Shown: in pieces, positions 10,181-59,320 of the stretch | Layout of the letters: every line of letters starts with the position of its first letter | How positions within the stretch are numbered: the first letter of the stretch is position 1 | NCBI GenBank assembly: GCA_963965975.1 | Contig: OZ014412.1 | Coordinates: 5,334,501 to 5,398,500 of the forward strand | Length of the DNA stretch: 64,000 nucleotides | Origin: Xestospongia bergquistia | Taxonomy: Eukaryota > Porifera > Demospongiae > Haplosclerida > Petrosiidae | Direction: 5' to 3' | Notes under the pieces: generated by a model | Databases searched by the model: none | Seen by the model: the letters and a program-made list of their open reading frames with translations, nothing else | What the model was told of the DNA's origin: nothing | Made by a program: the position numbers and the translations under genes

Positions 10181-10640
10181 AACTATCATATTTACAATAT
10201 ACTATTGTAAAAGGTATTTCTTAAAGTGTTATATAATGCTGTCTATAACTCCACTGATAGTGGTATGTTATACTGATGACGTCTAATAAGACAGAAACAG
10301 CATTATAATGTTAATAGTATTTATAATTATGTACTTTAATTAATTTTAGGATAATCTATGTCTTTATTATCTGAAATATAATAGAGTGAGTTATTAAACT
10401 TAATATTGATAATATAGATAGACATATCAATGGATACACACATGTATTAATGGATATATGAATGGTTGAATGGATACATGAAGAGATGGGTGTGTATGAA
10501 TGGATGAATGAATTGTTCTATTTTTGATGTATCTTCTTTATGCACTAACATTACCATATTTGGTAGTCATGTGACATGTAACTACCTATGACTATATATG
10601 GTATATTATAATATGAGCTGAAACTGGTATGGGGACAATA
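10181..10640 (+). repeat. LTR-like direct repeat, left copy (contains ribozyme 1)
   Basis: About 450 bp closely matching 12745-13190, in the same orientation and about 2.57 kb away. It contains a palindrome (TTTACAATA/TATTGTAAA, 10191-10211), a hammerhead motif (10232-10307), and a tail rich in TGGATATATGAATGG-type short repeats. Whether these are true LTRs or two insertions of one repeat cannot be settled by eye. Confidence 0.55.
10232..10307 (+). ncRNA. Hammerhead ribozyme-like motif 1 (type III)
   Basis: Stem III: UAUAAUGCUGU pairs perfectly with ACAGCAUUAUA (11 bp). The expected cleavage site follows GUC (C17 at 10243). Stem I: UAUAAC pairs with GUUAUA and is capped by a CCACU-GAU-AGUGG hairpin. 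The core has CUGAUGA (C3-A9) and GAAA (G12-A15.1). Stem II is GUCU-AAUA-AGAC, with a C-A mismatch at the 10.1/11.1 position. All invariant core residues are present. Self-cleavage is inferred, and the 10.1/11.1 mismatch could lower activity. Confidence 0.8.
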
Positions 10641-10642
10641 TA

Positions 10643-10644
10643 TC

Positions 10645-10705
<61 letters not shown>
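10643..10705. repeat. (TA)n microsatellite
   Basis: Almost uninterrupted TA dinucleotides over about 60 bp, directly after the left LTR-like repeat. Confidence 0.9.
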
Positions 10706-10719
10706 GTATATACTTTCAC

Positions 10720-11135
10720 AGTTTTCCAGGGTTGTTATTTCAACTACTGCCAAGTTTTATTTAGAAAAATTTGCTTAGTTGGACAGTATAGATAGAATGT
10801 TGATTTCAAGAAGTTTGTTCATAAAGCTGCTTCCTTGTCATTTGTACTGGTTCAATTTATTTGACTAGGCCAACAAGCCATCAAAGCTGGCCAACCTCAA
10901 GTAGACAATCCCAGTTTGTAATCTTTCTTAGTTTGTAAGTTATTTTGAAGATACATGGCTAGTTAGAAACTTTAGCATATCCAAATGGAACGTTTCTGAT
11001 GAAGAACAAGTTAGGACAAACAACCATATTGAAGGATGGCATAATTATTTAAAGAAGTTAGTTAGAAAGCCACATTCAAATTTGTATGAGTGTGTTGAAT
11101 CTATCCAACAAGAGTAGATGGTGGCTACGTAAGTT
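10720..11135 (+). pseudogene. MULE-type transposase remnant (C-terminal part)
   Basis: The plus-strand frame 10984-11115 reads RTNNHIEGWHNYLKKLVRKP followed by HSNLYECVESIQQE. This matches the conserved region of Mutator-like transposases and related FLYWCH/MULE proteins (the TNN-x-EGWHN motif and an L/IQ-x-EQ motif). It is broken by a TAG at the expected Gln codon and by degenerate sequence upstream. A second, frameshifted copy lies at 42.95-43.37 kb. It is not a functional gene. Confidence 0.6.
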
Positions 11136-11487
11136 TCTTTGTAGCAGGATCATGCCTTCCTCAAAGGACAAAATGTGGCATTACAAAAGACTTAAAAATC
11201 AATGAGCTAAAGACTCAATTTATTCACAACTTATTCCTTAGAAAAACATGTACATGGAATTTCAAAAGTTTAAAGTATTACCTTATTTAATATTAAAATA
11301 GTATTATTAATTACAATTGCTCATTAATTTATTTTGTAGGCAAAACAACACACATGTTATTTTCGTATGCAAAGTGGATTATCTTGGTAGACAAAATGGG
11401 ATATTCCCTTATGGAATACAAGTTTTTAAGGTGTTGTCTACAGTGATACTATTTTCATATTTCATTATTATTCTTGTCTCTAGGTAA

Positions 11488-12404
11488 TCATAAATGACTT
11501 AGGGTCTGTTTATCTGATGTTGCACCTTCACAGTTTTCATCACTGTTGTTATGTTCAATCTCTGTAGTCTGGTTCAAAGGTACATATGTACACCCAATAC
11601 ATTGATATCCTGATCCACAAAACATTAACTTGCTTACATCCTCAACAATGTTCTTTAAAACCTTTTTATAATTGCTACCATATAATTGATAGTCAACATT
11701 TTCTCTTATCATGTAGGATCCACCCAATCAATGTCATAATACCTATCCTCAAGTTCGTGACATATCTATCTGGTGTTTTCTGGTAAAGGTAGATTAATAT
11801 ATACATCAGATAAATGCAAATTCTCTATAAAGTAAATATATATGTTGTGCATGGTCAGTGATGTCATAGCAAAGAAATAGAAGGCATTCTTTAGTTTTCT
11901 GAGGTAATTCATTCAACAACAATAGTATAAATTTCTATATCCATATCTTGTGCTTGTCTTTTTGTGAAAGTTATGATTCTATTGAAATATAAAGCTGCTG
12001 TTTAACAATTATACATGGAAATGATTGATAGTAAACACTTTTGTAATAGACAGTTCTGACATGCAAGATAGAAATAGTTAAGGAATATCACTCCCTATTG
12101 ATTTGAAATATTATGTAATTGGCTCAGCTGTATACTTGGTACATTTGTTAACTCCTTAATTTTGTCACCTGAAGTAAACATTTGTGCTAAGTTTAACAGT
12201 ATTACTTGTTATACAGTTTGGGAACATGCATGTGACAACTGGCTTTTGAAGCTCTGGTTGCTTCCATGTTAGAATGTACTCTAGGTTGTGTGATGTTGTT
12301 GATCTGTCATTCAATTGATTATCGAATCTATATACTTCAATTTTAAAGGTGTGATTTATGAACAGACAAATGTAATAGCTGTGGCTTCTTCTCTTTATCA
12401 TCAA
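11488..12404 (-). pseudogene. Decayed multi-copy protein remnant with cysteine motif
   Basis: Two minus-strand frames, 12404-12165 (YYICLFINHTFKIEVYRFDN) and 11727-11488 (KLMFCGSGYQCIGCTYVPL), are separated by degraded sequence. The second ends in a C-x-C-x2-C-like pattern reminiscent of cysteine-rich CXC domains; the 43.68-43.83 kb copy keeps an extra Cys (CGSGCQCIGC). The same two blocks recur at 43.68-44.28 kb, and the first also at 8.2-8.3 and 55.4-55.6 kb. I do not recognise the family. It lies between the two LTR-like repeats, so it may be element cargo. Confidence 0.4.
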
Positions 12405-12419
12405 TCATTGCAGAATCTT

Positions 12420-12744
12420 CATAGAGGCCTTTGAGAGGACCATCATCTCTACTATCAGATTACATCCTAAACATTAGAAAAGGTACATGTATGATGTATG
12501 TAGATGACATCTTTGTTATGACAATATCTCTACATAGGAATTTTGACTTGTGACTTCTTTAAGTAGAAAATTACCTCAGGAGAGACAGTGTTATGTCTTC
12601 ATGTCAAGTAATAGGACAATATTGTGTTATATCTCTACTATCATCTAATATGTATCATGACCTCTAAAGGTATATATTGTTATACTTTGTATAAAGTTAT
12701 TGTTAGTTATATAATTATTATATAGCTAATTAATTAATTAATTA
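12420..12744. repeat. Repeat module preceding ribozyme 2
   Basis: A sequence shared with 8.34-8.64, 20.82-21.12, 44.29-44.60 and 55.54-55.85 kb. In three of these places (here, 21.18 and 44.67 kb) a hammerhead motif follows after a TTAATTAA-rich junction. Confidence 0.6.
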
Positions 12745-13190
12745 ACAACTATCATATTTACAATATACTATTGTAAAAGGTATTTCTTAAAGTGTTATAT
12801 AATGCTGTCTATAACTCCACTGATAGTGGTATGTTATACTGATGATGTCTAATAAGACAGAAACAGCATTATAATATTAATAGTATTTATAATTATATAC
12901 TTTAATTAGTTGTAGGATAATTAATGTCTTTATTAATATAATAAAGTAAGTTATTAAAACTTAATATGGATATATAGATAGACATATCAATGGATACACA
13001 CATTTATTAATGGATATATGGATGGTGGAATGGATATATGAAGAGATGGGTGTGTATGAATGATTGGATTGAGAATTGTTCTATGTTTAATGTATCTTCT
13101 ATATCTAGTAATATTACCATATATGGTCATGTGATATGTAATGACCTATGACCACATATGATATATGTTAAAAATTGGTATGGGAGATAA
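12745..13190 (+). repeat. LTR-like direct repeat, right copy (contains ribozyme 2)
   Basis: Near-identical to 10181-10640 and in the same orientation. It has the same upstream palindrome, hammerhead and TGGATATATG-rich tail. Differences are mostly single bases and short indels. Confidence 0.55.
12798..12873 (+). ncRNA. Hammerhead ribozyme-like motif 2 (type III)
   Basis: Same 76-nt layout as motif 1, with C17 at 12809. The 10.1 base is U instead of C, which restores a pair with A11.1, so stem II is fully paired (UGUCU/AGACA). This is the best-paired copy and the first to test for cleavage. Confidence 0.82.
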
Positions 13191-15090
13191 TATACTTGTG
13201 ACCATATATGGTATATGTTAATAATAGCTAAAATTGTTATGGGGTCAATATACCTATTATCATACACAGTAACACATATTACGTATATGTACACTGATAA
13301 ACAAAGTGAAATGTAATCAAATGTCAATTGATCAAACTGTTAGTTATCCTGAGATACCAGCATCTATTAGTATGTGTTACAATATATGACATATAACATA
13401 ATATGATATATAGTCATGTGACCATTGAGATCCACTAATTTATGTTACCACACCCACAAGTGTGATGTTTTATTTGTTACACATGTCAAATTGTATAGTA
13501 TAGTTTCATGTATGTGTTAAACACAACATGTTATATATTTAGAGTTAATTCAGATAGTACATTCATGATCAACTAGTATCACATAATATAGATACCTATT
13601 TTATAAGGTGTATATTTATATAACTGAAGATACATTGAGTATAAATGATTTATTATAACCAAAACATCACACTAAAATCAGTAAACAACAATCATGTAGA
13701 TATCAAATATCATCAATACATAAACATACAAATATCATCAATACATAAACATACAAATATCATCAATACATAAACATAACATATCATATATATCATATAT
13801 ATAGAACTCATAGAGTATGGAAAAATTTATGGCGGTCGACTGATTAAGGCTATACATGTGAATGCTACTAAATAGAATATAAAAAGTGACACATGAATGG
13901 ATATACATGTGAAAGTGTGCATCAATGAATATGATTAAGGCTATACATGTGACACTACTAAATAGAATAAAAAAGTGACATATGAACTATTAATATGTCA
14001 TATTGTTAATATGATATTGTTAATGCGTTGTAATAACACAGGAGAGCACAACATTAGACTTAGTTGTTACTACAGAGATTACTTTCTGTAGTGAGAGAAA
14101 ATCAAACAATAGACATATAGTAATTAAGTGAAATGGGAACAACATGTTTAATATTCTATTCTAACTTTATTACATTTTTTTCCTATTACATTATATTATA
14201 TCTGTAGTTTAATAATGATATCAGTCTCATTTTATTACATTTATAATACAAACTTCATAGAATTAAGGGAAATTATGTTCTATTTAAATATTGTCCTGTT
14301 TATATAGTTTGGTAACAAGAATGTAACAGTAAACATTTGAACAGCCATACAAGTAATTAAGAGATTGTTATTAAGTCCCACCCATCAAGATACATTATAA
14401 ATATACCATAATTATATTAATTACTAATTTAATTACATAAGAACTAGGTTCAAATAACAAATACACATGTACCATGTTTTCTCAAATAAAAGCCACAACA
14501 TTTATAATTTTGCTTTATGGAAAAAGGCAGCATTTATATATAATATAGCTCCAATTTTTGAGTTTAAAATTTAAAGAAAAATTTAGTTTAGTGATAAAAT
14601 TATAACACCCTGACTGCCACACACTAAATAATTATTAATGTAATAAATAATAGCATTATGAGCCAAATACAATCATAGGAATTATAGCCCACAAAGATTG
14701 TAGCTATACAATATATACAATAACTATCAGACACAACCCCTATGATTGAACAATGGATGGATCTGAGGAATTTAAGGATTAGGTCTGAAACTAATAAGAA
14801 GTAACAATCATTGATTTGAAGATTCTTAATAAAATATAGTTTCTATCAGTTAGTGTTATTGCTTTGATAGGAGTCTCAGTAAAATTGACAGTGTTTATAT
14901 TAAAGTAATAATTTGTTGTCATATATTATTACTTGGTAATGCACTCAATAATTTGAGGAATTTTGTTGAGTTGTAACTATATGCATTTTTTGTGGTATTA
15001 AAAAATTATATCTAAAATATCTTATTTTGACATTATCAAAACTAAAGGTTCTGTTAAAGGGAAGCTATTTTTGAGAATGGGAATAATAAC
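13191..15090. other. 3' flank of locus I, no gene seen
   Basis: AT-rich sequence. The part around 13.3-13.6 kb is shared with the 3' flanks of H (17.2-17.4 kb) and C (45.1-45.4 kb). At 13711-13780 there are almost three units of a 25-bp minisatellite (CATCAATACATAAACATACA plus five bases). The 14.1-14.9 kb part matches the 3' flank of gene B (33.6-34.4 kb), including a conserved CCCACCCA block. I could not find a terminal coding exon for I here. Confidence 0.55.
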
Positions 15091-20151: not shown

Positions 20152-21180
20152 CTATAAAGTAAAATAATACTCACATAATATACAATATAGACATGTAGTA
20201 TAATAGTCACTACATAGTAGTAGCCACATAGAACATGGTAACAGTAATGAGTATTATACATATTAGAATAAAACATTAGCATCCCATACATGCAAGATCC
20301 TTCTAGTCTAGATATGTACTGTTAAATCAATTCTATCATTTAAGGTCAGTCAGTTATGTCAGTGTGTAAGAAGGTTGTTACTTTAAGGCTGTTATATGTT
20401 AACTAAAATATATAATGTGTATAATGTATTTATTTTCAAGTGATTTTTACACTATATATTTCTTTAGAGTCACAAAACATAACTTCTATAAACTTTTTAG
20501 TTTTCAATATTAGTAAACTCTGGTAACTTTATTGCTATCAAATGTTACAATAATTTGTAGTTATATAATATAAAGTTTCAAGTAGTTATATCTAACATTG
20601 TACATGTTTAACTTGTTACAAATATATGGACTTCATTGGTTGTAATGTGTGTTCCAACAGTCAGTACATATAACAATACAACAAAGAGATGAAACAAACA
20701 TACACATTTAGATAGATGCAGTCATATCATATTGTCTTATAGAACAATTTTAGGACAGCAGATTGACAGGTTCTAAATTATCAAACAAGATGTCTCAAGT
20801 ATTATAATTTAACACAAGTACATGACTTTGAAAGGGCCATCATCTCTACTATCAGACTACATCCTAAACATTGGAAAAGCTACATGTATGATGTATGTAG
20901 ATGACATCTTTGTTATGACAATATCTCTTTATAGGAATTTTGACTTGTGACTTCTTTAAGTGGAAAATTACCACAGGGACAGTGTTATGTCTTCATGTTA
21001 AGTAATGAGACAACATTGTGTTATGTCTCTACTATAATCTAATGTATCATGACCTCTCAAGGTATATATTGTTGTACTTTGTTACTTATATAATTATTAT
21101 ACAGCTAATGAAAATCTTAATTAATTAACAACTACCATATTTACAATATACTATTATACAAGGTATTTCTTAAAGTATTA
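20152..21180. other. Upstream of locus H/I, no gene seen
   Basis: 20.15-20.80 kb resembles the start of intron 1 of A, B and C. From 20.82 kb the dispersed repeat module that precedes ribozyme 3 begins. Confidence 0.5.
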
Positions 21181-21256
21181 TATAATGCTGTCTATAACTC
21201 CACTGATAGTGGTATGTTATACTGATGACGTCTAATAAGACAGAAACAGCATTATA
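21181..21256 (+). ncRNA. Hammerhead ribozyme-like motif 3 (type III)
   Basis: Same 76-nt sequence as motif 1. Stem III is perfectly paired (11 bp), with C17 at 21192, the CUGAUGA and GAAA core, and C at position 10.1. The upstream palindrome is partly degraded (TATTATAC on its right arm). Confidence 0.8.
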
Positions 21257-23366
21257 ATGTTAACAGTGTTTATAATTATATACTTTAATTAGTTTTAGGA
21301 TAATCTACATCTTTATAATCTGAAATATAATAGAGTAAGTTATTAAACTTAATATTAATATATAGATAGACATATCAATGGATACACACATGTATTAATG
21401 GATATATGGATGATGGAATGGATATATGAAGAGATGGGTGTGTATGAATGGATTAATGGAAGAATTGTTCTAGAACATGTTTCAATACAAATCACATAAA
21501 GATAATGTGTCATATAGTCATGTGATCATTGAAAAGGGGAACCATTTATTGTAACAATCATTTTATATTACTATAATTACTTAGAGAACTATAAGTTTTT
21601 GACATTTTATTTGTGAAAATGAATTGATAAATGAACACCACATTGTTCAATGTTTAATGTATCATCTTTAACACTTCTTACTTATCACACAGTCAAAATC
21701 ATTTTATTGTCAGAACATTTCATCCTGTAGTATCATACATTTAGTCATCATCACATTACTATAATATGAAGAAGGTATCATATATTATTATAAAGTGGAT
21801 AACAAGTCTAAAGACCATTATACTTGCAAGTACACATTTAGTATTATATTATACTCTTTACTAATAAATGTACTTTTAGTCATTAGTAGTAGTGTTACTA
21901 TTATAGAGAAGTATTATTTAAATTAATATGTCATATTATATGTGTATTAAAGTACTTACTGTATTAACCTGTTGACTGTTATGTACTTATATGTAATATG
22001 TATCCATACATTAAAACTGAGGGTATTAGATAGAAAGTTAACAATACAATGTACTACATATAACTACATTTAAATCATTGTACTATTGTGTTTTTATGTT
22101 ATTGTTGTAGGATGTATCATGTCTTCTCACACAGTCTATATTAGTCTGTGACTTCATTTATGTATGAACAGTATAATATACCTTATAATAAAACAAAGCC
22201 ATCAGTAGTATAGTTTATTAAAAGTTTAATATTGCATTTAATTAACAATGACATTGTTGAGTTGTTTGTTCTTTACTTTATAGACAAGTAGTATTGTTGT
22301 TTTAATTAGCTATAACTAAAAATAAAACCATTTAGTTAGTGTAGTTATATTTTAATTAACTAATTATAACTAAATAAAAATGTTTTTCAAGGACTAAAAA
22401 CTAACTATAAGTAACTAAAAGTAAAAACAAAAAGACACTAGTTTATAGTATGTACTAAGTTCCTTGTTGTCTAGAGTAACTGACCTTTCAAATAACCCTT
22501 TGTTGTCACTACTATAGCAATATTGCTATAGTAGTGACAACAATATGTACACACTCATCATAGTAACCTTACACTTATACATACCTTGTTAGTGTTGGTC
22601 TTCATCTCTATTTGTGTAGAAAAATATATTTGTGTATATATTATATATGTACATTATTATGTGTATAAATATTATACACAATACATATAAAATTATATAG
22701 AATGAATGAATGTTGCTATGTACATTACCATAGCAACTAGCATTGATAATTCCTAAGGCTACATTTCACTAAAATAATCAAAAATGAAGTTACAGTATTT
22801 CTTTACTAGATCTACATTTTCTTTTAAATTATAAAAAATAGATTTACTATTCCCAAGTTACAATTATTACAATTTCATAAAATAGTAATATAAAGCAATG
22901 GGCGTGTTTTGTGGTTTTGTCTTGTATTGAAAACTACAAGAGAACATGTTCCTTTTCACACAATGGTAACATGTAGCAATCTTATTCATCTTTATGTATC
23001 TCTAGCTCTTCCATTATCCTCTCATGTCACTTGATAACAGCTGCTATATTATATGTTGTATTTTATATTTATATTACATTGTTACATGTATAATATAGTA
23101 TATTATTAATTTGTATTGTATGTATTACAATATATTATTATATGTATCACAATGAAATTACTACATTGTAATAAATGTACATGTAAATGGTTCACTTCTC
23201 TTTTTTCTAGTTCATTTGATCCTTTGGTACTCTGGCCATCTTTTAAAGTTAGAAGTACTACTTGTTCAGTATAATAGTGTAAGTCAAACTTGTGAGGTGT
23301 ACACTTTTTAAAAACAACTACCATATTTACAATATACTATTGTACAAGGTATTTCTTAAAGTGTTA
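21257..23366. other. Spacer between ribozymes 3 and 4
   Basis: No gene seen. 21.26-23.1 kb is homologous to 59.3-60.48 kb upstream of F. It includes TTTAGTTATA-type low complexity near 22.30-22.43 kb and a perfect palindrome (22500-22543). 22.99-23.36 kb is the leader also found before ribozymes 1 and 6. Confidence 0.5.
22500..22543. repeat. Perfect 44-bp palindrome
   Basis: Arms TTGTTGTCACTACTATAGCA and complement meet at AATATT with no spacer, giving 22 bp per arm. Part of one arm (CACTACTATAGCAA) recurs at 55047-55060. Confidence 0.85.
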
Positions 23367-23442
23367 TATAATACTGTCTATAACTCCACTGATAGTGGTA
23401 TGTTATACTGATGACGTCTAATAAGACAGAAACAGTATTAAA
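23367..23442 (+). ncRNA. Hammerhead ribozyme-like motif 4 (type III, covarying stem III)
   Basis: Stem III reads UAUAAUACUGU against ACAGUAUUAAA. The G-C pair of the other copies has become A-U on both strands, a compensatory change; one distal pair is lost. The core and stems I and II are as in motif 1. It lies about 430 bp upstream of gene D, in the same orientation. Confidence 0.8.
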
Positions 23443-23868
23443 ATTGCCTAAACCCTAAACATATTAACCATACATAGTGAACTATGACTTTCTACTAGAC
23501 TATAGGCACTTCTATTTACAATACCCTCTAGTTTTTAGTAATTAGTGAACTATCTCGCCATCTACAATAATTATTTAAAACATATAGTAGTACAATCACT
23601 ACATTAAAAAGCTAAAGAGAACTAAAATACAGCTAAGAAGATTGTACTCATTCTGTATTTCAAATGTACAACACCACACCTAATCAAACGAACAATTAAT
23701 CTTCTCACAGTCACACTTAACAAATTAACATTTGATTTAAAGAGAGATTTTTAGCTCCTCATACTTTCCTATTCCAGCCATTGTAACTATTATATAGTTA
23801 TTTATAATTAGATTCATAACATGAACATATGTATATATAAAAAGGGAGGTGGGATAAATTGTGGAGCC
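23443..23868. other. Upstream region of gene D
   Basis: About 425 bp between ribozyme 4 and the ATG of D. AT-rich, with no element I can name beyond short A/T runs. Confidence 0.4.
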
Positions 23869-25837
23869 ATGATCATGAAGAAGTATCTCCTGAGCATCTC
23901 TTTTATCTTTGGGAGAGCATTTGTACTACTCAATGATCCTAATAATGTATGTAGTAAAACTGAAACATCACATGTTCTACCAGGAATGATGATAACTCTG
24001 CTTTGTACGGTAAACAACACAGGAGCTGTAAATAATCTACTTATATGGAGTACACCTGTTAATCAAAATGGAGACTTAATACACATTAGTGGAGCATTAT
24101 CTCTCAGTAATTCAATATTCTCATCTATTGCTACGTTCAGTGAAGATTTAGCTAATGCTACACTGACATTTACAACTATCCAGTCATTGGATAATCAAGT
24201 AGTATATTGTAAAGACAACTTGGGATATTCTAAAAGATGTTCTCTGTTGATATACAGTGAGTAGATTAATTTGTAATTTATTTTATTTGTTTTTATAATA
24301 GCTATTCCCAGTGTTATAACCAACCTCACTAATACCAGTATTACTTACCAGTCAGTAAGTTTATCATGGAATGTTCCCAGTGATACAGGAGGATATAACA
24401 CAGTAAACTATATTATCACTGTGACTCCATTAGATGGTAAAAATCCATGGAACATTACTACTACAGACAATAGTACTAGTTACGCTGTCACTGAACTAAT
24501 GTTTGGTCAGAGTTATAACTTTACTGTGAGAGCAAATAATAGTATAGGACTGGGAGAGGAGAGTAATACACTGACTGCTCTAATTCCTGGATTAGGTATA
24601 TTATTAAATGTAAACAATAGCTTCTACATACATTTCTTTACAATAATATAATACAGTTTCCAGGTTTATTCAAAGCATAGAAATATGCTTTACTATAAGT
24701 AATGGAAGCAACTTACTAAACATCTATTGGAATGTAAGATTTATTTTATTTAAGACACTTTATAATAGTTACTTTATCACATTTTAGTGTTCTAACATAT
24801 TTGATGCTAATATTCCACCAGTGACTAACTACACTGTTAATGTTAATGGATTTATTATCTACACCTTCTTCCCTGACAACTGTCCCTCCGATGGTTCTCC
24901 TTATAGAATTCAAACTTTTAATAACACACGATATTCTATTAACATCACAGCTAATAACATACTTGGATCAAGTATTGGTTCCAATATAGTCATCAGTAAG
25001 TTTAATGTTTTATAAACTATATACTGTCTATTATGCAATATAGAAAACTTCATGTCAATAACATCAGACATTAACCTGATAGGAGAAACATATGTCCTAT
25101 TAAGAGTTAAGATAACATGGAACAGTCCATGTATTGATAAAGTACAAGTGATAATATCATACTACAAATCATCAAGATCATCAGTACCTCATAATAGTAG
25201 TAGTAGTTATTATTTGATTGAAGATGTTAATGGTAAATTAATTTTTCTTGATAATTTAGATCCAGGTTCTGAGTATCTTTATAATATCTCAATATATGAA
25301 GGAAATGAACACATCATTTCAGAAGTGAATAAAACTTTCTATACAAGCAATAGAGGTGGTATGTGAATAACTCTTCTTTATTTAACCCTTTCACTTTATA
25401 ACATATAGGGATTCTTCCTACATGTACCATAACTCAACTACTCTCAATAATTGAAATTACAAGTACTGTAACAATTTCTGTTACAAATTCTCCACTTGAT
25501 CAGCAAACAGCTGGTGAGCAGCAAACTCTCTCTTTATTTCTCTTACATTATAATTCCTATAGACTCACTTCATTGTAATGTTATAATTGCTGTCAGTATA
25601 CCCATTACTGCTATAGTAACTGTTATACTAACAGCTGTAGTACTCTCTTTTATCTACTATTGTATCAGATCTAAAGGGAGTTACTCTCCCTCACCAGTTA
25701 TTACTCATTTTCCTATGGCTACAACAACAGTATCTACTAGTGGTGTAACATCACTTGAAATGAAAGATAATATGGCATATAGTCATAGTGGGAGACTTAC
25801 TAAAACATCAATCATTTATGATAATATAATTAATTAA
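23869..25837 (+). CDS. Gene D: complete Ig/FN3 transmembrane receptor
   Basis: Seven exons: 23869-24256, 24302-24595, 24657-24733, 24788-24995, 25044-25358, 25409-25513, 25563-25837. They sum to 1662 nt, an unbroken 553-residue frame. Exon 1 alone encodes the signal peptide (MIMKKYLLSISFIFG) and the whole Ig domain (Cys in TLLCTV, Trp in LLIWSTP, Cys in VVYCKD). Then come one FN3 (exon 2), a second FN3 split over exons 3-4, a third FN3-like module (exon 5) and a linker. The last exon has the membrane segment ITAIVTVILTAVVLSFIYY and a tail of about 55 residues ending TSIIYDNIIN. IIYDNI fits the ITIM pattern and YDN a Grb2-type SH2 site. An upstream in-frame ATG at 23821 is less likely, because it would bury the leader. 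Many N-x-S/T sites. Confidence 0.85.
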
Positions 25838-27537
25838 CTACATTTGATTTCAACATTTAATGATAATACTTAATTTTGTTTGTTTTTGTTCATAATTAAT
25901 TACATAAAAAGTTTGTATATTAATATATTAATATATATATAGTGACAGGTGTATTAATTGAGCACATCTAAGACTGTATACATATAGATCTAGGTATTAC
26001 TAATATAATTTGAATGAGACAAATGACAAAAAGAAATTAACTTATAATTATGTATCATCCTTTTAACAGACCTATTGTCATGTTGACATCAGCACTACTA
26101 TTGTGAATGTAGAAAGAAAAATGGAGTAATGAACATGAAAGGAGATAAAGGGAATCATTGGAAGGGAACTGAAAGATAAACATTATTTATGACTTACAAT
26201 AATTGTCTACTTATTTTAGACAGTTTATATATTTTTTCCGATAAGTTTGTATGCAAATCTCCAGTGCATGCCACCAGCTGTGAATACAATAGATTTGAAC
26301 TTGTTAATAATATTAATACAATATAGATATGAACAAAGTTAAATGTAATCAAATAATCAATCTATTAACTGTTAGTTATCCTGAGATACCATTATCTACT
26401 AGTATGTATTTTAATATATGACATAAAAAATAGTATGAAATATGGTCATGTGACCATTGAGAGGAGAATCATCCATTTCTCTGTTTATTAACAATATCAT
26501 ATATTGGCTACTGTATTTTAGGTTTTACTATTTTTAGTAAAAATTTTTAGTTTTACTATTTAGTTTTTACCTATTTTAGTTTTTACCTTTTTCAATCTCT
26601 TCAGTTGTTAATCACATAATAATTTCATGTAGTAAATTAATCATTTTCTTATACCATCATTAAATTCCTCCTTATTCCAAGATGATGGTTATAATATGAT
26701 GGTTATAATCACTGACTATTATATTGTTGTTATAAGTTAATAAAATATATAGATTATCTCATTCCACACAAGTTGTAGTGGTATAACCAATATGATTATT
26801 ATCATTACCTTGTTCATAACTAACATTTTACATAATTAAGAACGTCATTACATACAGACAGACAGACACAAATATTGCACTCATACACTGTAAAAATTGA
26901 TTGGTTGATTTAACCATTATTCGGTTATACAGGTTGCAATTACAAACTTATTTTTGTGAAAAGTAAGCATAATACTGTTTTCATTACTAATGTACTACTG
27001 CTTATGTAGCTACATAGCCACTAATTTCATAACACATTAGTAACCAAAATAGTTATAAGTTTACTTTTTGCATATGCAACCCATATAACCATGTATTGGT
27101 TAAACCAACTATTTAATTTTTGCAGTGTACAGTATGGAATTACCTGATACTGTATTCTCATCAATGTCATATGCTTCATTGCTTCTTCAGGTGGTGATGA
27201 TGGATTTGAAATACCATGAAATTATCACATATTATAAACTGAAGAAGATGCTGAGATAATTAAGGGGGAGGACAGTGGAGTCAGTAAGTCCATCCGATAC
27301 AATTGATAGTGTTCGACTGTGTTCCTTGTATGTTTTCGTGCTCACTAATTTATGGCAATGTCCATATGATAATGTTGAACACCAATAGCATTAACTATCA
27401 GATCTCTGTGTCCGTCTGCCATATATATCTTTAAAAGATGTAATGATTATAGAAATGATAATTAAATCATATTAAATTTAAATATGCAAATGCGACAATT
27501 AAATTTTTAGATTTCGGAGGGTAACTGTGCTTTGACT
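25838..27537. other. 3' flank of D and intergenic spacer
   Basis: 25.84-26.48 kb is shared with the 3' flank of F (61.26-61.93 kb). 26.34-26.46 kb matches a repeat with GTTAGTTATCCTGAGATACC, also found at 13.3, 45.2 and, inverted, 30.1 kb. 26.5-26.6 kb is a TTTTAGT-rich low-complexity run. No gene seen. Confidence 0.5.
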
Positions 27538-29327
27538 ATGACTACGAGCAAAAGACGAAGACCATTCTGTAGTGAAACTGATGTTGTACAGCCTTCTCCA
27601 CTTAGGATAAGGACTAGGAGAACTTTTTTGTGTGTTTGAGGCTATTGGTGATGTTAGTATGTTTGAAGGAACAGACTCTCAATCAGATCTTAACATTCCA
27701 AGTCACCGATCTTGGTTGCGTCCTCTGGAAGATGTTACTGCTAACGCAATACTAAGCAAACTCATAGCATGTATTGAAGGCAGTGTAGTACTCTCTCCTT
27801 GTCTTATAGAAGAGGGTGCAGTTTCATTTGAAAACTAATCTGATCTTAGATCACCTTCATTTGAAGGTAAATTATTATAACATATTATGTAATTTATCAT
27901 TACCATTATTTGTTAATGTACTCAATTATTATTACAATTATCATTTATTTAGCGTCCCCAAAATACTAATAAGTAATTAGTGAAGTTCTAACAGTTCTTC
28001 AAAAGTTGCCATTTGTTAGAAAAAGGTTACCATCTCAAAAGGCCAAAAGAAAGCACTTCTCATTTTGTTCAGCAACTTCATCTGTTACTTGTAACACTTC
28101 ACAGTTCAATGAGTTTAATGACTACCAACAATACATAGTTTACTATATTATGGACTTAATTAATTGATGTAATTATAGTCAATTGTCAATTGACAGAGTT
28201 CAATTACCATTACTCCATTACATTGAAATATAAGATACAATTACCTTTGCCATTATTATTACTATAAGACTTGTAATTAATTATTTAATTTATTGCATTT
28301 CAGTTAACATTACAACATCCTTGCTCTTTATATTTTATATGTTAAATATTGTATTCTTTCCTTAATCAATAGACATTCAGGAAGAGCTACAAGAAATTAA
28401 GGCTAGTAGCAAAACATCAGAAGACAAGTTTGACAAGAAATTATGCGAAATTGAGAACGTTATAAATGGTTTCAAGGATCAAAGGTCTAAGAATAAATCA
28501 AAAGTTTTATGAGATATTAGAGTGATTAATAAAGTAAGTTTATTATAATTATTAAATAAACTATTGTTAGTGTGTTATCAGAAGAGTATATAAAACACTA
28601 TAGGACAACAAAGAAGATTTTGAATGGACATTTGAGTATGTCATATTCTTTTATTTATATAATTTATATAGTTACCATTTATATTAGCAAACCATTCAAA
28701 GACAAAGTGAATGAGTACATTACACTGAGAATTATTGCTGAAACAATAATTACATGTTTCTATCATTGAAATGAGAGGTATGTTCATATAATTTTCTGAA
28801 TAAAATTTATTTACAAGATAACTAACAAAGACATACTTTCAAAGTTTAAAAATGTCTTTCAAAGAAAGACACAATGGAAAGTATGTACAAAAGAAATATG
28901 AGCAACAGAGAAGAAATAGATTAACAAAGGTAATCTCTGATATCCTTCATAAAAATATTAACATAGGTATCTATTAATGTAGAAACTATCTGTTTACATG
29001 GCCTCTCTTTACATCTTCAATTAACAGAAGAGCAGGAAAGTATTGAAAGCAGAGCCTTGTTGTGGAATATAAAAGTAAAGAAGATAATGAAGAAGAAAAG
29101 ACTTTTAGTTGTTTGGACTCTTCCATGAATTTCAGAAAAGTCACAACACTATTGAAGGCTCTAAACAAAAAGGGAGTGTTAATCAAAATCTACTAGAGGA
29201 AGAAATATGATGTTTAAAAGATAGATAGGTTGGCCATTCAACAGGCTACCAACTACAAGTGATGGCACTATTTCACAGTTGGTATTGAAGTTAATAATTG
29301 AACCAAATTTGACAATTATGTTGTAAC
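27538..29327 (+). pseudogene. Decayed unrecognised multi-exon gene
   Basis: Coding-like pieces on the plus strand: 27538-27639 (MTTSKRRRPFCSETD, stopped by a frameshift at a T6 run near 27628), which continues in another frame to 27838 (SHRSWLRPLEDVTANAIL); 28373-28512 (a charged coiled-coil-like stretch, EELQEIKASSKTSEDKFDK); 28852-28929 (KKYEQQRRNRLTK, then a GTAATC donor); 29056-29192 (SKEDNEEEKTFSCLDSSMNF); 29228-29327 (GWPFNRLPTTSDGTISQL). Splice sites between them are plausible but frames are interrupted. The family is unknown to me. It is less AT-biased and more lysine-rich than its surroundings. Confidence 0.35.
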
Positions 29328-34500: not shown

Positions 34501-37500
34501 ATTGCATTCTTCCTAGCTCAATTGCATTAGTGGAACCTATAAAGAAAAACAATATAAACAAAAACATTTTTATCTTATAGAAATAACTATGAATAAAGAC
34601 TAAAACTTAATAGGTAGTGAATAGTCATATCCTCAACATTGAAACAATCATCATATGAGCACAATACCATTCTCATCAATTATTCTAACAGAGATCACTA
34701 TTAAAGTAGTGGTTATGCATGATGTAATATAATGAGGTCTGTCAACTGGACAAGTAACTTACCATTAGGGTTTTTTGTTCTTCTTAACACAACAACAAAC
34801 TATGCAAATAATAAGGACTGCTGTAATAGCTCCTCCCACAGCAGCCAAGATATATATAGCCACATCTGTAATATAATACAATAAACAATGTAGATGATTT
34901 TGTAAGTAATATTTTTAGCACTCAAGAACCTAAACTAGTTATTTTGGCAATGATTTGCGCATTCACACTTACAATGCCATTTCATGAAACAGGATGTGAT
35001 GCACACAATACTGCATGTATTAATTAATTAAGGCATATGTATATCAATAAACAAGACAATAGTTATTAAAGTCTATTCACATTTAATTTGACCTTGTAAA
35101 TCAAACTTAATCATGTTTTAATACAATAATTTATATGTACCCTTTATGATAATACTTTGTTTATTGGTAATACAGAGGTAACTTTGGAACAGTTAAACAT
35201 TTTAACTCTAACTACATTGCAGAAAGTACTGTTAAAGTAAATAGGTACTTTATAATGATAAAAGGCAAAGGCCTAGTAGAAAACAAAGGTCAAATTTAAC
35301 AAAAACAGACTTTAGAGTGTACAAAGTTGATTATTATAATAATCATTTTTTACTTGATGTTGATGTAGTTATCACAGGTGTTGGTGAAGTGGATATAGAG
35401 GTAATAGTGGTTGTACTCACAATAATACCATCAGTAGTAACCACTTGTACTATTAACTTATGTGTAGCAGTGCTAGGTTGTAGAGATGACCATATAAACT
35501 TGTCTGTTACATTGGCCACATATGGTCTTTTATCAATAACTATTATGTCATCGGTGTCCTTGTTGTTGCGAGCTAACAAAATATTTAGATCATCTCCTTT
35601 CACACAAGTTGCAGTTGTATAATCAATACGATTATTATCATCACCTTTTTCATAACTAACATTTTGTAGCCAGCTAACATCTAATAAAGATCATTAATTT
35701 AATAAAACAATAACATTATATGTCAACTTACTAAAATCCACTGTCTTCTTACTTGATCCCATAATATTGTTAGCAGTAACACTCACAGTATACATTCCTT
35801 CATTTACTGATTGACTATAGCTACAATTAGTAACATCATTCGAAGAACTGTTGATTGTTATTGTATGATCAACAACAGGAGGTGTTATGTTTGTATTAGA
35901 AATTGTTGATGGCTAAATGAATAAAAATATAATTAACAATGCATCATGAAAGCCCTAAATGATCAATCGGGTTGCTTCATTTCAAGTAACTATACACTCT
36001 GACTATAGAATAATTGATATCATATTTAATACTTACATTACATGTAACAATCAGTTCAGTTGTACCATTAGAATTATAGCCCATACAAATACTAATTTTG
36101 ACAGAAGATGGCATTAAAAAATGAAACAAGATCATATCATTTTAAAGTTATTTTAATATACCTTCTCCAGGAATTAGAACAGTCAGTATATTACTCTCCT
36201 CTCCCAGCCCTATACTATTATTAGCTCTCACAGTAAAGTTATAACTCTGACCAGATATTAGTTCAGTTACAATATAACTAGTACTATTGTCTGTAGTAGT
36301 AATGTTCCATGGATTTTTACCGTCTAATGGAGTCACAGTGATAATATAGTTTACTGTGTTATATCCTCCTGTATCACTGGGAACATTCCATGATAAACTT
36401 ACTGACTGGTAAGTAATATTGGTATTAGTGAGGTTGGTTATAACACTGGGTATAGCTATAGAAATACAGATATTACAAAATGACTAGCTATAATACATGT
36501 ACATGTATTTTATATATGTTAACTTGAATTGTTCTATTATATTGTTTTATTCTATGCAACTATTGAAAGTTATACATAAAACAAAGCTGTTTATTCAAAG
36601 CTAACATCTCCTAACATACTGTATCTGTTCTTAATATAGCCTTCTAGTTTTTCAATGTTCATACTTGATATAATGGACAGTTTAATTGATAGAAATTTTT
36701 TAAAAACAGCTAACCAATTTATATGGTTAACAGAGCTAGCTGTTATAGTCTAGAAAGTATATTTTATTAATAATAATATAATAGTTAATACATGTACATA
36801 TACTTAACAAATCCATATAACTTATAACACAATAGTTTGTTTTAGAATATAAACTCACTGTATATCAGCAGGGTACAAGTCCAAGAATTTCTCAAATTAT
36901 CCTTACAAGTCACTACTTTGTTATCCAATGACTGGTTAGTTGTAAATGTCAGTATAGAATTAGCTACATTTCCATTAAAGATAGCAGTAGATGAGAACAT
37001 TGGGTTACTGCAATATAATGTTCCATTAGTGAGAGCTAAATCTTTATTATCACCATCATACTAAAAAATGAAAGAAATGGTGACGTCAATGAGCCAAATA
37101 AATAAATAAAAGTACAACTAAACAATATTATATAATTGTTATAATGTGTATTTGTGGTTATTTAATGTTAGTTATTTTCATTAGTTAATCTCAAAATGAA
37201 ATACAACAATAATTATAATGACAAGACATATTAACATACTATCCAAAAAAAGGTGCATGCCAAATTATTAGGATAAACTAACACAGCTGTCTAATAGTTT
37301 TCTCTTCTGTACTAAAGCTACTATCATAGTGTGGTTTAGCAATACAGTAACTTATTGTAAGATAGATTTAATGGAGTGCTGCCATTTTTATCAACACATT
37401 AGTTTCATCTATTGGCAATCACTTGTTGGTACTAACGTTGTGACATAAAGGCAAGAAATGTCAAAATGTTATTTGACACTCTCATTATTACTAGTAGTCT

Positions 37501-44600: not shown

Positions 44601-44671
44601 GAAGACCTTAATTAATTAACAATTATCATATTTACAATATACTATTGTACAAGGTATTTCTTAAAGTATTA

Positions 44672-44747
44672 TATAATGCTGTCTATAACTCCACTGATAG
44701 TGGTATGTTATACTGATGACGTCTAATAAGACAGAAACAGTATTATA
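44672..44747 (+). ncRNA. Hammerhead ribozyme-like motif 5 (type III)
   Basis: Stem III UAUAAUGCUGU faces ACAGUAUUAUA. One G-C pair of the other copies becomes a G-U wobble, intermediate between motifs 1 and 4. C17 is at 44683. The core, stem I and stem II are otherwise identical to motif 1. Confidence 0.8.
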
Positions 44748-45827
44748 ATGTTAATAGTGTTTATAATTATGTACTTTAATTAGTTATAGGATAATTAATG
44801 TCTTTATTATCTGAAATATAATAGAGTGAGTTATTAAAACTTAATATGGATATATAGATAGACATATCAATGGATACACATATATATTAATGGATATATG
44901 GATGGTGGAATGGATATATGAAGAGATGATGTGTATATGAATGGATGAATGAAATTGTTCTATATTCGATGTATCTCCTTTATGCACTAATATTACCATA
45001 TATGGTAGTCATGTGACATGTAACTACCTATGACTATATATGGTATATTATAATATGAGCTGAAACTGGTATAAGGACAATATACCTATTATCATACACA
45101 GTAACACGTTATGTATTGGTACATTGATGAACAAAGTGAAATGTAATCAAACGTTAATCCATTAAACTGCTAGTTATCCTGAGATACCATTAATTACTAG
45201 TATGTGTTACAATATATGACATATAAGATAATATGACATATAGTTATGTGAGAAGAAAACCATCCACTGTAACAGTAATTTATGTTAGTTTGTTACACAT
45301 GTCAGTATAGTTTCATGTATCATGTGTTAAACACAACATGTTATGACATTAGAGTTAATTCAGATTATTGCATTCGTGAATTACATAATCAATTAGTGTC
45401 ACATTATACAGTACCAATTTTATAAGGTGTATATTTATATAATTGAAGGTATTGTGAATAAATTAATAAATGATTTATTATAACTAAAACATTCCACTAA
45501 TTCTAATAAACAATAATTTATAAGATGATCATGTAAATATGAGGTAGATTATAAATACAGAACTCATGGAATAAGGAGGGACTTAATGATAGTATAATAT
45601 AAATTATGATTAAGGCTATATATGTGTGATTGAGTGATACACAACTGAAAAGATAAATGATAAACAACTTAAGACAACTTAATAATAAATTAAATGGTGG
45701 AAACTTAAATACAGAAACTAATATGCAAATCATTAGATGTTTATTACAGAGGTACAAGTATGTAAGAGAATATAAAAGAGAACAAATTGTAATAATATCT
45801 CCTGATTTATGTTGTCAAGCATTTCAC
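44748..45827. other. Tail of the ribozyme repeat and 3' flank of gene C
   Basis: 44.75-45.07 kb is the TGGATATATG-rich tail common to ribozyme copies. 45.12-45.80 kb is homologous to the 3' flank of the H block (17.16-17.80 kb). No gene seen. Confidence 0.5.
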
Positions 45828-54763: not shown

Positions 54764-54830
54764 GATTCCTACAAGCAAATATACGCCACGTGAGTTCCGG
54801 ATTTAGGTCCGATTATTTTGAGTCACAGTT
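54764..54830 (-). promoter_or_regulatory. Shared proximal upstream region of gene C
   Basis: CACGTG (54787-54792) is 24 bp before the ATG, followed by TTCCGGATTTAGGTCCGATT, in the same order as upstream of B. No TATA box can be distinguished in this AT-rich background. Confidence 0.35.
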
Positions 54831-55049: not shown

Positions 55050-55860
55050 TATAGCAATTCCTTTATCAGCAGAAAGTATAACAAACCCCTCCTCCCTTTT
55101 AAGCATTTAGTGCAGATTGATTGAATGTAGGTGTTAGTGTGTCTTTATTGTATCTTTATAGACAGTTGTTGACTACTCTTCTTAGTTGATGACTTGTCTG
55201 GCAAAGAAATTTTGGTCACCTGATATAGTGTCAGCATTAGGTACCTTCTTTGGGTTGATAATAATGCTCAGATCTAAAGCAAAAACATTGACTTCAGCTT
55301 CCATGGCTGCTTTTAAGTTGTATCAATACTAGTGGGTGTATCATATAATCATCATTAAGGATAGACTTTAACTCTGACCAACAACTAGAAGATGGAACAA
55401 CTATGAAACTAATTCAGATTTGTCATCTGACTGATTCTCAATTCTACATACTTCAATATTTGAATGTGTATTTCATGAACAAACAAATGAAATACCTATA
55501 GATTCTTCACTATATCATTCATCATTGCAGAATCTTCATAGAGGACGTTGAAAGGGTCACCATCTCTGCTATCAGACTACATCTTAAACATTGGAAAAGG
55601 TACGTACGTGTATGTAGATGAGACCTTTGTTATGATTGCATCTCTTTACAGGAATTTTTAACTTTATCTTCTTTAAGTTGAAAATCACCTCAGAGGACAG
55701 TGTCATGTCTTCATGTCAAGTAATAGGACAACATTATGTTATGTCATCTACTATCATATATTATGTATCATGACCTCTCAAGGTATGAATTGTTGTACTT
55801 TGTATAAAGTTATTGTTAGTTATATAATTATTATATAACTAATGAAGACATTGAACTGGT
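55050..55860. repeat. Repeat module, degraded copy
   Basis: 55.43-55.85 kb matches the module at 8.2-8.64, 12.3-12.72 and 44.1-44.6 kb. Here it ends before a hammerhead would start. The left part is only weakly similar to the other copies. Confidence 0.45.
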
Positions 55861-58370
55861 ATGTTTGGTTTATAATATATCTTTTCAACCCTTATTTTAC
55901 AGTAATACAGTGAATCCTGGCTTAGTGATGACTTGTGTCTAACAACCACTCTAAGTAGCCCCAGCAGAGAACTTATCATAACAACACTGTTTCACCTAGC
56001 TAAAGCAACCACTTGCCTAATACAATCTTAATACCACCTTACAACACACCCCTATGAATGGTCTATAATTGAAATGACCTGCCTACAAAGACCAACATAA
56101 TGATTTTCATTATTGTACTGTATATTGAACCATTTTCATTGTGAATTATTATGAAGTAAGTCATTTAGTATATCAATGTATTATCGACAGCCATAAAATC
56201 TGTAGACCCAAGCTACTTTAACTGGTTGTAGCTACATAAATATTGTATAATCAACTGTCAATTGCATCCAGGCTTGGCTTAATTCATAGCTGTACTATTC
56301 ATCCTCAGTAACATGCAGAAGTTAATAATATTATAATAAGAAAAACTCTCTAATCAACCAGTATGTCTGTGGTTAGTTCATTCAAGACCAAAGACGACCC
56401 TGTTATGATTAGTCCTGTAAGTAGTCACTTTCATAGGTTTCATTGAATGAATAAATAGTTTTTATAAAACCTTGACAATTTACTCTTGTACATAAACTCA
56501 GGAGGTCAGTCCTAATTGTTCTTTGTATCTTCTTCCCACCTACAATTACAATAGTCACTGTATTTTTATACAATCTCTTGATATAGTACCAGTTTGTAAT
56601 CCTCTCATGTCACTTCACTCACTTGGTAACAGCTGCTGTATTATATGTTATACTTAATATTCATATTTATATTACATTGTTATATATATAATATAGTATA
56701 ATGTAATTAATTTGTATTATATGTATTACAATATATTATATGTATCACAATGAAATTACTACATTGTAATTCTTTTTATCTATTATATATGTATATATAG
56801 TTTTCTCCCTTTCCTTATCCTTACTTTTCACCTCCACTACATTTGATCCTCTGATACTCTGACTATCCTAGAAGTACTATTCATCCAGTACAATACTGTA
56901 AGTCAAATTAATGAGATTGTTTTATGTATGTATTATAAATTGTTTTATGATGTATGAGTTGTGGTACTATTTCATTTTCATGAGAATCCTCTTATTTCTA
57001 TTTTAGACGTATTAGCATTTGTGCACATTTTGTTAGATGAAATAGGTATAAATCTACCTTAAGTGCAGGTGTGTTTAGACTCATTAAAAGCATTGATTGT
57101 ATAGACTACATGTTACATACTCTATACAATCTATCACAGAATAAATGAAGGTGCTTTCCCTTCAGGATAACCCAAAATATTAAACTTTGTCTAAAAATTT
57201 ATGTGCACACATGATGGATTCTATTTGAGTCTGTGATTTTAAGTTCTAATGTGACATTGTCCTTCTAAGCCATTACCCTTTCAACTATCTTACTTTTCTT
57301 CCTATCTTGGTTTATCTCTATATTACTTTAGTCAAGAGGTTATTGTGTACATAGTCTTGACTGCAAATCATAGGGCGGCTTAGCCCCCTGATTTGAAGTT
57401 GGGGGGCTGAAGCACCCCCTGCTTACCCCTATGGTTTAAGGTAACGTATACTATAACCGGTCACCTTTGCTATATTTACTTGCGACACACACATCCGTTA
57501 ACTGGGAGGCGGTGTAGCTCACAATTAAAGTTCACTAATTTATTCATTACTGTCTAAACACACCTTTCAAAAATAATCGAAGTGCTGTTCTTTCAGGATG
57601 AGCCAAAATACTAAATTTCATCTAAACATGTTTATGTCCACATAATAGGTTTGATTCTATTCTGTTATTTCGAGTTCTAACATGACATTATCCTTTTCAT
57701 CTCTGAAAACTGGAATAGATGAACCAGGCTATTACCCTTTCAACTATTCTATTCCTGTCTCGATTTACCTCTATCTCTTTACTTTTTTCAGTACTAAATG
57801 GACTCTCCTCATAGAGAAGGCAAGAAAGAAGCTAAACTGGATTAAGTAAGGTTTAAAATATGAAAGTAAGTCACATGATGAAATGAGACTACATCCATCA
57901 TGTGAAAAGTGACATGGTCTTATATGGTGTGCCACCTGTGTCAAATTAAATATTGCTACAATGGGAATGGCTCACTACTGGCTACGTGTTATATGTTCAA
58001 AGTGTTTAGGGTTTACGTTTTGGGGTGGGGTCTAGTAACAGTATAATACTGATGATGCCATTCCTATATTCATCAGAACATTGTGATGACACTCGATTCA
58101 ACAAGGGGGCAGGTCCCCAGGGTGTGGTTACTGGGGAAACCGGAAACAACCAATTAGATTTGTCCATATGTTAGTTGCATATGCAATTGATGTAAGGGGA
58201 CCAATCAAATTAGAACTATTTTAACTGCATAGTAACTAAGCAGTATAAAAAGTACAGTTTTAACTTCATAGTTTAATTCTGTAACCATTGACTTTAAGTA
58301 TTGGCAGTCTCTTTCAGTGGTTTCCTGTACAATTGTTTCATTTAAAATATAATACGTTAAAAAAATAAGG
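55861..58370. other. Repeat-rich spacer, no gene seen
   Basis: 55.9-56.5 kb has short CCACTT/GACCACC-type repeats related to 8.64-8.9 kb. 56.58-56.92 kb is the ribozyme leader, truncated. 57.15-57.32 and 57.55-58.04 kb are two copies of the repeat at 7.0-7.5 kb. 57.37-57.43 kb is an unusually GC-rich island (CCCCCTGATTTGAAGTTGGG), and GC also rises near 58.10-58.15 kb. Confidence 0.5.
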
Positions 58371-58379
58371 TCCCAATAC

Positions 58380-58602
58380 CTCTATTGCAATATTGAGGGA
58401 AGTAAGAAATGCAGCTTCTGACTCAAGTAAACTTTCCACTACTTTATAGTGCTTTCTCTATAAAATAAAAACATATTAACGTATTATGTCTCAAGAGAGA
58501 CAGACAAGATGGCATTGTAAAAACTATAACATACCTCAGTAAGTGGCAGTTTATCTGAGAGTGTAGGGAGATGTTGTGGACATACAATGTAGTCAATATA
58601 TA
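58380..58602 (-). pseudogene. RhoGEF (DH)-like exon pair, better-preserved copy
   Basis: Exon A, about 58602..58535, reads DYIVCPQHLPTLSDKLPLTE. After a 77-nt intron, exon B (58457..58380, 78 nt) reads KVVESLLESEAAFLTSLNIA in phase 0, followed by a GTATTG donor. The text resembles the first helix of Dbl-homology RhoGEF domains, where a Glu-rich E-x2-F/Y-x3-L pattern is typical. Only this exon pair is present, flanked by repeats, so it is a captured fragment. A copy with a broken acceptor lies at 9.3-9.5 kb. Confidence 0.4.
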
Positions 58603-58639
58603 CTATTCATCCCCAGTTATCTGCAGAAGTTATTAATAT

Positions 58640-59244
58640 TATTATAATAAGAAAACCTCTCTAATACAACCAATATGGCTGTGTTTGTTTTATATACCAC
58701 ATTTCATCTACAAAGACCACCTGTCTTTGTAGGTAGTCACTGACAGGTTTCATTGTATGACAATGTAAATGAATAAATAGTTTTAGCTCAGTCCCCTGTA
58801 TTTCTTGATATTGTACTAGTTCTCTATCGTCTCATGTCACTTATTAAGTGCTGTTGCTATATCATATCATGTTATACTTTATGTTCATATTTATATTACA
58901 TTATTATATGTATAATATAGTATAATATTATTAATTTGTATTGTATGTATTACAATATATTATTATATGTATCACAATGATAGTACTACATTGTAATAAT
59001 GTACATATAAATGGTTCACTTCTGTTTTATCTATTGCACATGATGTATATAATTTTCTCCTTTCTCTTATCAATACCTTTCACTTCCATTACATTTGATC
59101 ACTTGATATTCTGACTATCCTCTAAAGTTAGAAATAATGCTTATCCAGTAAAAGACTGTAAGTCAAAGTTGTGATATGTACACTATTTTAAACAACTACT
59201 ATACTTACAATATACTATTGTACAAGGTATTTCTTAAAGTATTA
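58640..59244. repeat. Leader repeat of ribozyme 6
   Basis: Matches 9.57-10.23 kb across its length, but with a single unit where that copy has the 98-bp duplication. Includes the conserved CTCATGTCACTTATTAAGTG and ATGTATCACAATGA blocks. Confidence 0.55.
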
Positions 59245-59320
59245 TATAATGCTGTCTATAACTCTACTGATAGTGGTATGTTATACTGATGACGTCTAAT
59301 AAGACAGAAACAGCATTATA
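59245..59320 (+). ncRNA. Hammerhead ribozyme-like motif 6 (type III)
   Basis: Stem III is perfectly paired (11 bp), with C17 at 59256. In the distal stem-I hairpin one C is U (CUACU-GAU-AGUGG), turning a C-G pair into a U-G wobble, so pairing is kept. The core is identical to motif 1. Confidence 0.8.

Follow-up and report, generated by a model that had tools for sequence, protein, structure and literature searches.

A type III hammerhead-derived sequence family, probably old and mostly dead, with a well-kept group in a receptor gene cluster of the sponge Xestospongia bergquistia

A 64,000-nt stretch of the genome of the sponge Xestospongia bergquistia contains six copies of a 76-nt motif that is real, non-random and of the type III hammerhead ribozyme in its layout. 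The stretch, called here the window, covers positions 5334501-5398500 of contig OZ014412.1 (C2) in a genome of 146 Mb and 21 contigs; coordinates given without a contig refer to it. We consider, with a probability of about 0.57, that the six copies belong to an old, low-copy and mostly dead family derived from a type III hammerhead and spread by the duplication of gene clusters, with a well-kept group in a cluster of receptor genes. One sequence, probably old, is represented at low copy number in the genome by about 80 nt, and was multiplied in the receptor cluster by duplication of the segments between receptor genes. The family as a whole would be the fossil of a hammerhead-bearing sequence and not an active mobile element.

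Results

The six copies have the layout of a type III hammerhead

A sequence-only reading of the window had reported six plus-strand copies between receptor genes, and each of them was found at its place, at 10232..10307 (copy 1), 12798..12873 (copy 2), 21181..21256 (copy 3, identical in sequence to copy 1), 23367..23442 (copy 4), 44672..44747 (copy 5) and 59245..59320 (copy 6). Cleavage is predicted after the C at 10243 in copy 1 and after positions 12809, 21192, 23378, 44683 and 59256 in copies 2 to 6. From 5′ to 3′, all six show stem III, UC, stem I, CUGAUGA, stem II, GAAA and the second strand of stem III. The layout is assigned to type III because stem III is the open helix: UH, CUGANGA and GAAA in this order, with helices I and II capped and helix III open, were found in the six window copies and in all eight copies of the receptor cluster (C2:5.34-5.45 Mb) to which they belong. 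Stem III, including U16.1-A15.1, has 11 pairs in five window copies and 9 in copy 4, which has lost the two outermost pairs. Stem I consists of 6 bp followed by a 1+3-nt internal loop (U/UAU) and a 5-bp hairpin, while stem II is short and closed by the loop UAAUAA. The differences among the copies preserve pairing in the way first described: a U-A pair at 10.1/11.1 in copy 2, G-C changed to A-U in stem III of copy 4, a G-U in stem III of copy 5 and a U-G in the stem I hairpin of copy 6.

Folded in isolation, each of the six 76-mers also takes the hammerhead as its minimum-energy structure, with z values of -2.8 to -4.0 against shuffled sequences. It is the best fold of five copies when 100 nt of context are added on each side; in this setting the best fold of copy 4 is a weak one, with a probability of 0.39 for the stem III pair tested, and in copy 5 a different fold is the best one (0.17).

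The pair 10.1/11.1 is open in most cluster copies

At the base of helix II, positions 10.1 and 11.1 are occupied by a C.A mismatch in seven of the eight cluster copies, including window copies 1, 3, 4, 5 and 6; copy 2 alone in the cluster carries U-A. The closed pair of typical hammerheads is therefore absent from seven of the eight, and the doubt on activity raised in the sequence-only reading from the five mismatched window copies was justified. According to PMC3088659, 10.1/11.1 is the most conserved pair besides A15.1-U16.1, the mismatch best tolerated there is U.U, and a U.U variant supports cleavage. A closed pair at this position is typical of hammerheads, not strictly defining. Since U-A is also present in two copies on contig C1 and in a copy at C2:9.18 Mb, it is probably the older state. 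If the plus strand is transcribed, the RNA would fold into the hammerhead and could self-cleave after C17. Copy 2 would be the likeliest candidate for cleavage, and slow cleavage or none is expected of the seven C.A copies. If the motif has an effect at all, it would probably be to cut intergenic or read-through transcripts of the receptor cluster.

The family is small and its core is complete only in the receptor cluster

The search of the genome with a 153-nt query gave 18 places: eight in the receptor cluster, six of which lie inside the window, one at C2:9.18 Mb, two on C1, six on C14 and one on C7. A C14 query added one truncated C14 copy and a C7 query two C7 copies, so that the family counts 21 members on four contigs, one of them truncated, a lower bound from these DNA searches. 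The covariance model was also run on ten other places that differ from a 20-mer of the motif by two or three mismatches, and no member was added (best 17.6 bits, E 0.65). In prokaryote contigs a 19-mer of the motif had one exact match, and in viral contigs a 17-mer had three; the covariance model supported none of them.

At the distant loci, homology is mainly confined to the motif of about 78 nt, with short flank modules in some: one upstream module is common to C2 and C7 at similar spacing, and one downstream module is common to C1 and C2. The ancestor of the copies may therefore have been somewhat longer, with the motif as its best preserved part. The C2:9.18 Mb copy also shows a similarity upstream, which overlaps with other repeats and with A+T-rich stretches and was not used. 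The neighbourhoods differ from locus to locus: fibronectin type III receptor genes in the C2 cluster, kelch genes on C1, Death-domain and ankyrin genes on C14, TIG and trypsin exons at C2:9.18 Mb, and reverse-transcriptase stretches on the opposite strand beside one C7 copy. On C2 and C14 the copies were multiplied along with the surrounding DNA, and five of the six full C14 copies are spaced 5.3 to 6.8 kb apart.

The catalytic core is complete in eight of the 21 members, all in the receptor cluster, where its 13 letters are identical in every copy; the other 13 members are core-changed or truncated. The two C1 copies carry A3 or G15.1, the C2:9.18 Mb copy has A5 and C12, the C14 copies have A5 (with further changes in some) and lack the base at 10.1, and the C7 copies combine A5 with several core losses. 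Four of the six full C14 copies nevertheless keep 12 of the 13 core letters. Likewise, the exact pattern CTGATGANGTCN6GACNGAAA occurs eight times in the genome, each time in the cluster. When up to two mismatches were allowed, none of the 33 places listed had one mismatch and 25 had two; these 25 include two known members, and the backwards control gives 28. An identical 25-mer, CTGATGATGTCAATAAAGACAAAAT, two letters off this core-plus-stem-II pattern, stands on the minus strand at C1:1086391, C2:13704368, C2:13815776 and C2:14399494 and is probably part of an unrelated repeat.

Over 20 copies (alignments A3 and A4, which leave out the truncated copy at C14:1365078) the core changed at 1.08 and the rest of the motif at 1.10 changes per site (P=0.54, gaps not counted). 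Covariation was measured on 14 of the 18 members then known (alignment A2, model R1), where 88.0% of the pairs were kept against a shuffled mean of 87.8%, and two pairs had changed on both sides, a count as high in 129 of 500 shuffles. No covariation beyond that of the shuffles appeared over these 14 rows. The view of an intact, pairing-preserving family was thus not supported for the family in general, of which the core-changed or truncated members outside the cluster would be dead.

Chance is an unlikely source of the layout

The window was scanned with a descriptor made of CUGANGA, GAAA, UH, three stem II pairs (10.1/11.1 being ignored) and at least five pairs in stems I and III. The scan returned exactly the six copies, with no match on the minus strand of the window and none in the reversed 64-kb window, in which palindromes are kept. 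Dinucleotide shuffles of the window gave 0 matches in 400, 13 in 16,000 and 20 in 30,000 sequences, that is about 0.0007 to 0.0008 per window and 1.5 to 1.9 per 146-Mb genome. The six copies count as one independent event because they are located in common duplicated blocks. With stricter stems (at least nine pairs in stem III and six in stem I) a single shuffle in 30,000 passed, corresponding to about 0.08 per genome; it equals copy 4 in quality, and none of the 30,000 reached the 11-pair stem III of the other five copies. From this test alone, coincidence is unlikely as the origin of the layout.

A conserved palindromic non-coding element that fits the descriptor and never was a ribozyme would account for several of these observations. 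The relaxed descriptor is expected once or twice in such a genome by the above estimate, Rfam is silent, the stem and loop letters are conserved like the core, most separate loci have A5, and so much sequence was scanned that one odd match somewhere is likely. We nevertheless hold such a coincidence to be rather unlikely: the expectation under stricter stems does not yet count the extra 5-bp hairpin of stem I, the cleavage triplet, GAAA and stem II fit simultaneously, most full C14 copies are a single letter short of the complete core, and the reversed window was empty, though it amounts to 64 kb only.

The motif varies less than its flanks within the receptor cluster

Several results weigh against a mostly dead family of hammerhead descent. 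First, no Rfam family reaches its gathering cut-off anywhere in the window, and in a permissive Rfam search of 10000-13200 the sole hammerhead match was HH9 at copy 2, with 15.8 bits, E 3.4 and a cut-off of 52. Second, a midpoint-rooted tree of the 20 copies places A5 as ancestral, and the intact core could therefore be derived. Core loss appears likelier because of the four C14 copies that keep 12 of the 13 core letters, the root being uncertain. Third, the motif changed less than its surroundings: among six cluster copies, 4 of 76 motif sites are variable against 41 of 222 flank sites (Fisher p=0.005), and the five C.A copies alone give 3/76 against 37/228 (p=0.005). A motif slower than its flanks within the cluster is unexpected for a pure fossil.

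This contrast was found with most choices of flank. Among 93 overlapping flank windows of motif size in the six copies, none had fewer than 11 variable sites. Shorter flanks of cluster copies gave 4/76 against 24/144 (p=0.018), and five copies with the upstream module U1 as flank gave 4/75 against 83/231 (p=4e-8), whereas the comparison of seven cluster copies over 54 nt upstream and 2 nt downstream was not significant (5/76 against 7/56, p=0.36). The six-copy test omits C2:5357813, where the common block ends 2 nt past the motif, and C2:5407978, where the match begins 12 nt upstream of the motif; only gap-free columns were counted. No slowing was seen in the core-changed groups, namely C14 (17/77 against 66/326, or against 41/143 with short flanks), the C1 pair (6/78 against 30/418) and a pair formed by two of the three C7 copies (4/81 against 23/718). 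The cluster differs from C14 in this respect with p=0.015. The motif is thus slow only where the core is intact, as judged from tests that are few, made on paralogues with flanks chosen post hoc and more A+T-rich than the motif (GC 0.23 against 0.33).

These data fit a domesticated ribozyme, that is a type III motif still selected, as a self-cleaving or hammerhead-folded RNA, in the non-coding DNA of the tandem fibronectin-type receptor cluster of this early-branching animal, where it would cleave inter-receptor transcripts and tolerate C.A through contacts between helices I and II, its relatives beside kelch, Death-ankyrin and other genes being dead. Such a state would explain the slow motif in the cluster, the absence of slowing on C14, C1 and C7, and the 13 core letters unchanged in eight copies. 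Furthermore, as read from the sequence, AUA of the loop UAAUAA could pair with UAU of the helix I internal loop, and the same comparison of motif and rest was made in Dolichopoda (PMC2837043). Selection of this kind is unlikely on balance. The seven-copy test was not significant, few copies are involved, the flanks were chosen post hoc and are richer in A+T, seven of eight copies lack the 10.1/11.1 pair, covariation did not exceed that of shuffles, and too few changes occurred for the untouched core to be proof by itself. Slow change would be given by ribozyme selection, and also by another local function, such as a DNA-level role, or by gene conversion; for the slow C.A copies to be active ribozymes, they would have to tolerate the mismatch. 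Selection for cleavage in the receptor cluster is possible, not demonstrated.

The motif was multiplied with the segments between receptor genes

Copy 1 lies in a plus-strand block, 10178..10647, in which no coding match was found and which extends 54 nt upstream and 340 nt downstream of the motif. Its counterparts are 12744-13194, 21127-21472, 44618-45089, 59191-59510 and, shortened to 132 nt, 23313-23444. As the shared sequence indicates, the motif was multiplied in the receptor cluster by duplication of segments between receptor genes, and its location is intergenic as far as judged. The receptor setting proposed in the first reading is supported by fibronectin type III exons (PF00041) nearby, at 24277..24648 on the plus strand and at 36151..36483 in a minus-strand receptor gene. 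About 0.4 kb downstream of copy 4 lies the open frame of a further plus-strand receptor exon, 23812..24261, which has a signal-peptide-like start by eye, no Pfam hit, and homologous pieces on the minus strand of the window.

A plus-strand copy of U1 at 8760..9288 has no recognisable hammerhead at the matching place; the sequence that follows it can be aligned, weakly, with the 5′ half of the motif. It was considered as an empty insertion site with target duplication and rejected, the alignment continuing weakly with no clean boundary. A 108-bp unit doubled in tandem with 99% identity is found at 9630-9846, about 390 nt upstream of copy 1, and overlaps the start of a second U1 module.

Judged by eye and in small numbers, the regions with the six motifs each also contain a receptor gene start. 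By the same inspection, a gene start without a motif is present in the region 32.3-35.3 kb, and the stretch 25835-31186, between convergent plus- and minus-strand receptor genes, is motif-free. Strands and distances are mixed, and we therefore claim no consistent position of the motif relative to gene starts; a fixed one was dropped.

Elsewhere in the genome, the core-changed motif stands about 0.55 kb upstream of a Death-domain frame on the same strand in the two C14 stretches that were read (L045 and L046, C14:1.35-1.44 Mb). On C1, the segment 5292832-5292970 (L043:3333-3471) is a repeat of about 138 bp with at least 38 further copies of 88-99% identity on many contigs; it is related (79%) to window positions 22295-22422 on the other strand and is probably a young short interspersed element.

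Discussion

Among published architectures, the extended type III hammerhead of hepatitis delta virus (HDV)-like circles and of termite and dipteran genomes (PMC7936874) comes closest. It shares with our motif the type III form and a helix I that is interrupted by an internal loop and ends in an additional hairpin. The termite motifs, as described there, are isolated, with no recognisable open reading frames nearby, and are likened here to the window motif. The idea that a type III family is unusual in an animal is borne out as far as such motifs are uncommon; they are not unprecedented, since type III hammerheads of an atypical kind, in which helix I is extended, have been published for these insects. 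The extended HDV-like form is described by a 5-bp first stem, a 6-10-nt internal loop with GCCR and a loop II with YGGC, whereas the window motif has a 6-bp stem, a 4-nt (1+3) internal loop, a 13-nt hairpin, a helix II of 3-4 bp and neither GCCR nor YGGC, and so falls outside that class.

Most known type III hammerheads come from plants and circular RNA agents (PMC7761336), and retrozymes carry repeated ribozymes a few hundred nucleotides apart (PMC4918200, PMC7229834, PMC7761336). The long terminal repeat (LTR) retrozymes of plants resemble the window family in being non-coding and multi-copy and in their hammerheads, of type III according to PMC7229834. They have two LTRs of about 350 bp, each with a ribozyme, around 600-1000 bp (PMC4918200), and none was seen here. 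The metazoan non-LTR retrozymes (PMC7229834) share with it the animal host and a low G+C content, but are of type I, express RNAs of about 170-400 nt and reach thousands of copies in the species described, against the 21 members of type III found here. A retrozyme or tandem satellite was rejected for the window, where spacings are at least 2186 nt and common blocks reach well beyond the motif. Penelope-like elements have a reverse-transcriptase and GIY-YIG region flanked by minimal type I hammerheads; the window motif is type III, and no reverse-transcriptase-like frame was seen by eye among the window open reading frames of at least 85 aa, no full domain scan having been made.

Remnants of a mobile hammerhead RNA, be it a retrozyme, a Penelope-like element or an HDV-like or viroid-like circle copied into DNA, would be consistent with copies on four contigs whose flank homology breaks down, and with the isolated type III motifs of termites and dipterans (PMC7936874). 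Reverse-transcriptase open stretches (PF00078, non-LTR-like by eye) were observed at L044:113-1690, less than 3 kb from one C7 motif, but on the opposite strand. Such an origin is very unlikely. The 150-1000 nt spacing is absent, the window copies being 2186 to 21305 nt apart and most full C14 copies several kilobases apart; amplification on C2 and C14 took in long surrounding DNA; and A5 loci lie on three contigs, so that spread was probably without need for cleavage. Moreover, the two patterns used to search the genome for canonical hammerheads remained at or below control counts, with 0 matches against 1 for CTGATGAGNCCN{3,9}GGNCGAAA and 2 against 7 for CTGATGAGN{6,16}CGAAAC, no other hammerhead form being sought by pattern. 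With Rfam RF00008 and RF00163 no place of the genome lay above the cut-off, only 68 and 73 first-look candidates being scored and the RF00008 control matching nowhere; this outcome therefore carries little weight. The best RF00163 candidate (18.2 bits, E 9.96), searched with the family model, gave no match.

The old, mostly dead hammerhead-derived family that we favour can be compared with two further systems. In the pDo500 satellite DNA of Dolichopoda, conservation is likewise higher in the hammerhead region than in the remainder of the repeat; its core bears very few substitutions, and 13 sequences show 19 compensatory mutations (PMC2837043). In the window family, one double change is clear inside the cluster, and the core has changed outside it. 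Clec2 proteins are lectin-type receptors. The discontinuous hammerhead of mammalian Clec2 genes is also type III and associated with receptor genes, but lies in the 3′ untranslated region with a helix I of 150-1500 nt (PMC6155905), while the motif described here is compact and, to the extent stated above, intergenic. No report of such motifs in sponges was found in the open-licence literature, judged by titles and the starts of abstracts, and the words sponge and Amphimedon are absent from the main text of PMC7229834 and PMC3088659.

Animal type III hammerheads are few, and intact and broken copies beside tandem gene families constitute a natural experiment. If cleavage is confirmed, hammerheads outside mobile elements would gain a role in gene clusters, and the receptor cluster would provide a measure of how dispensable the 10.1/11.1 pair is.

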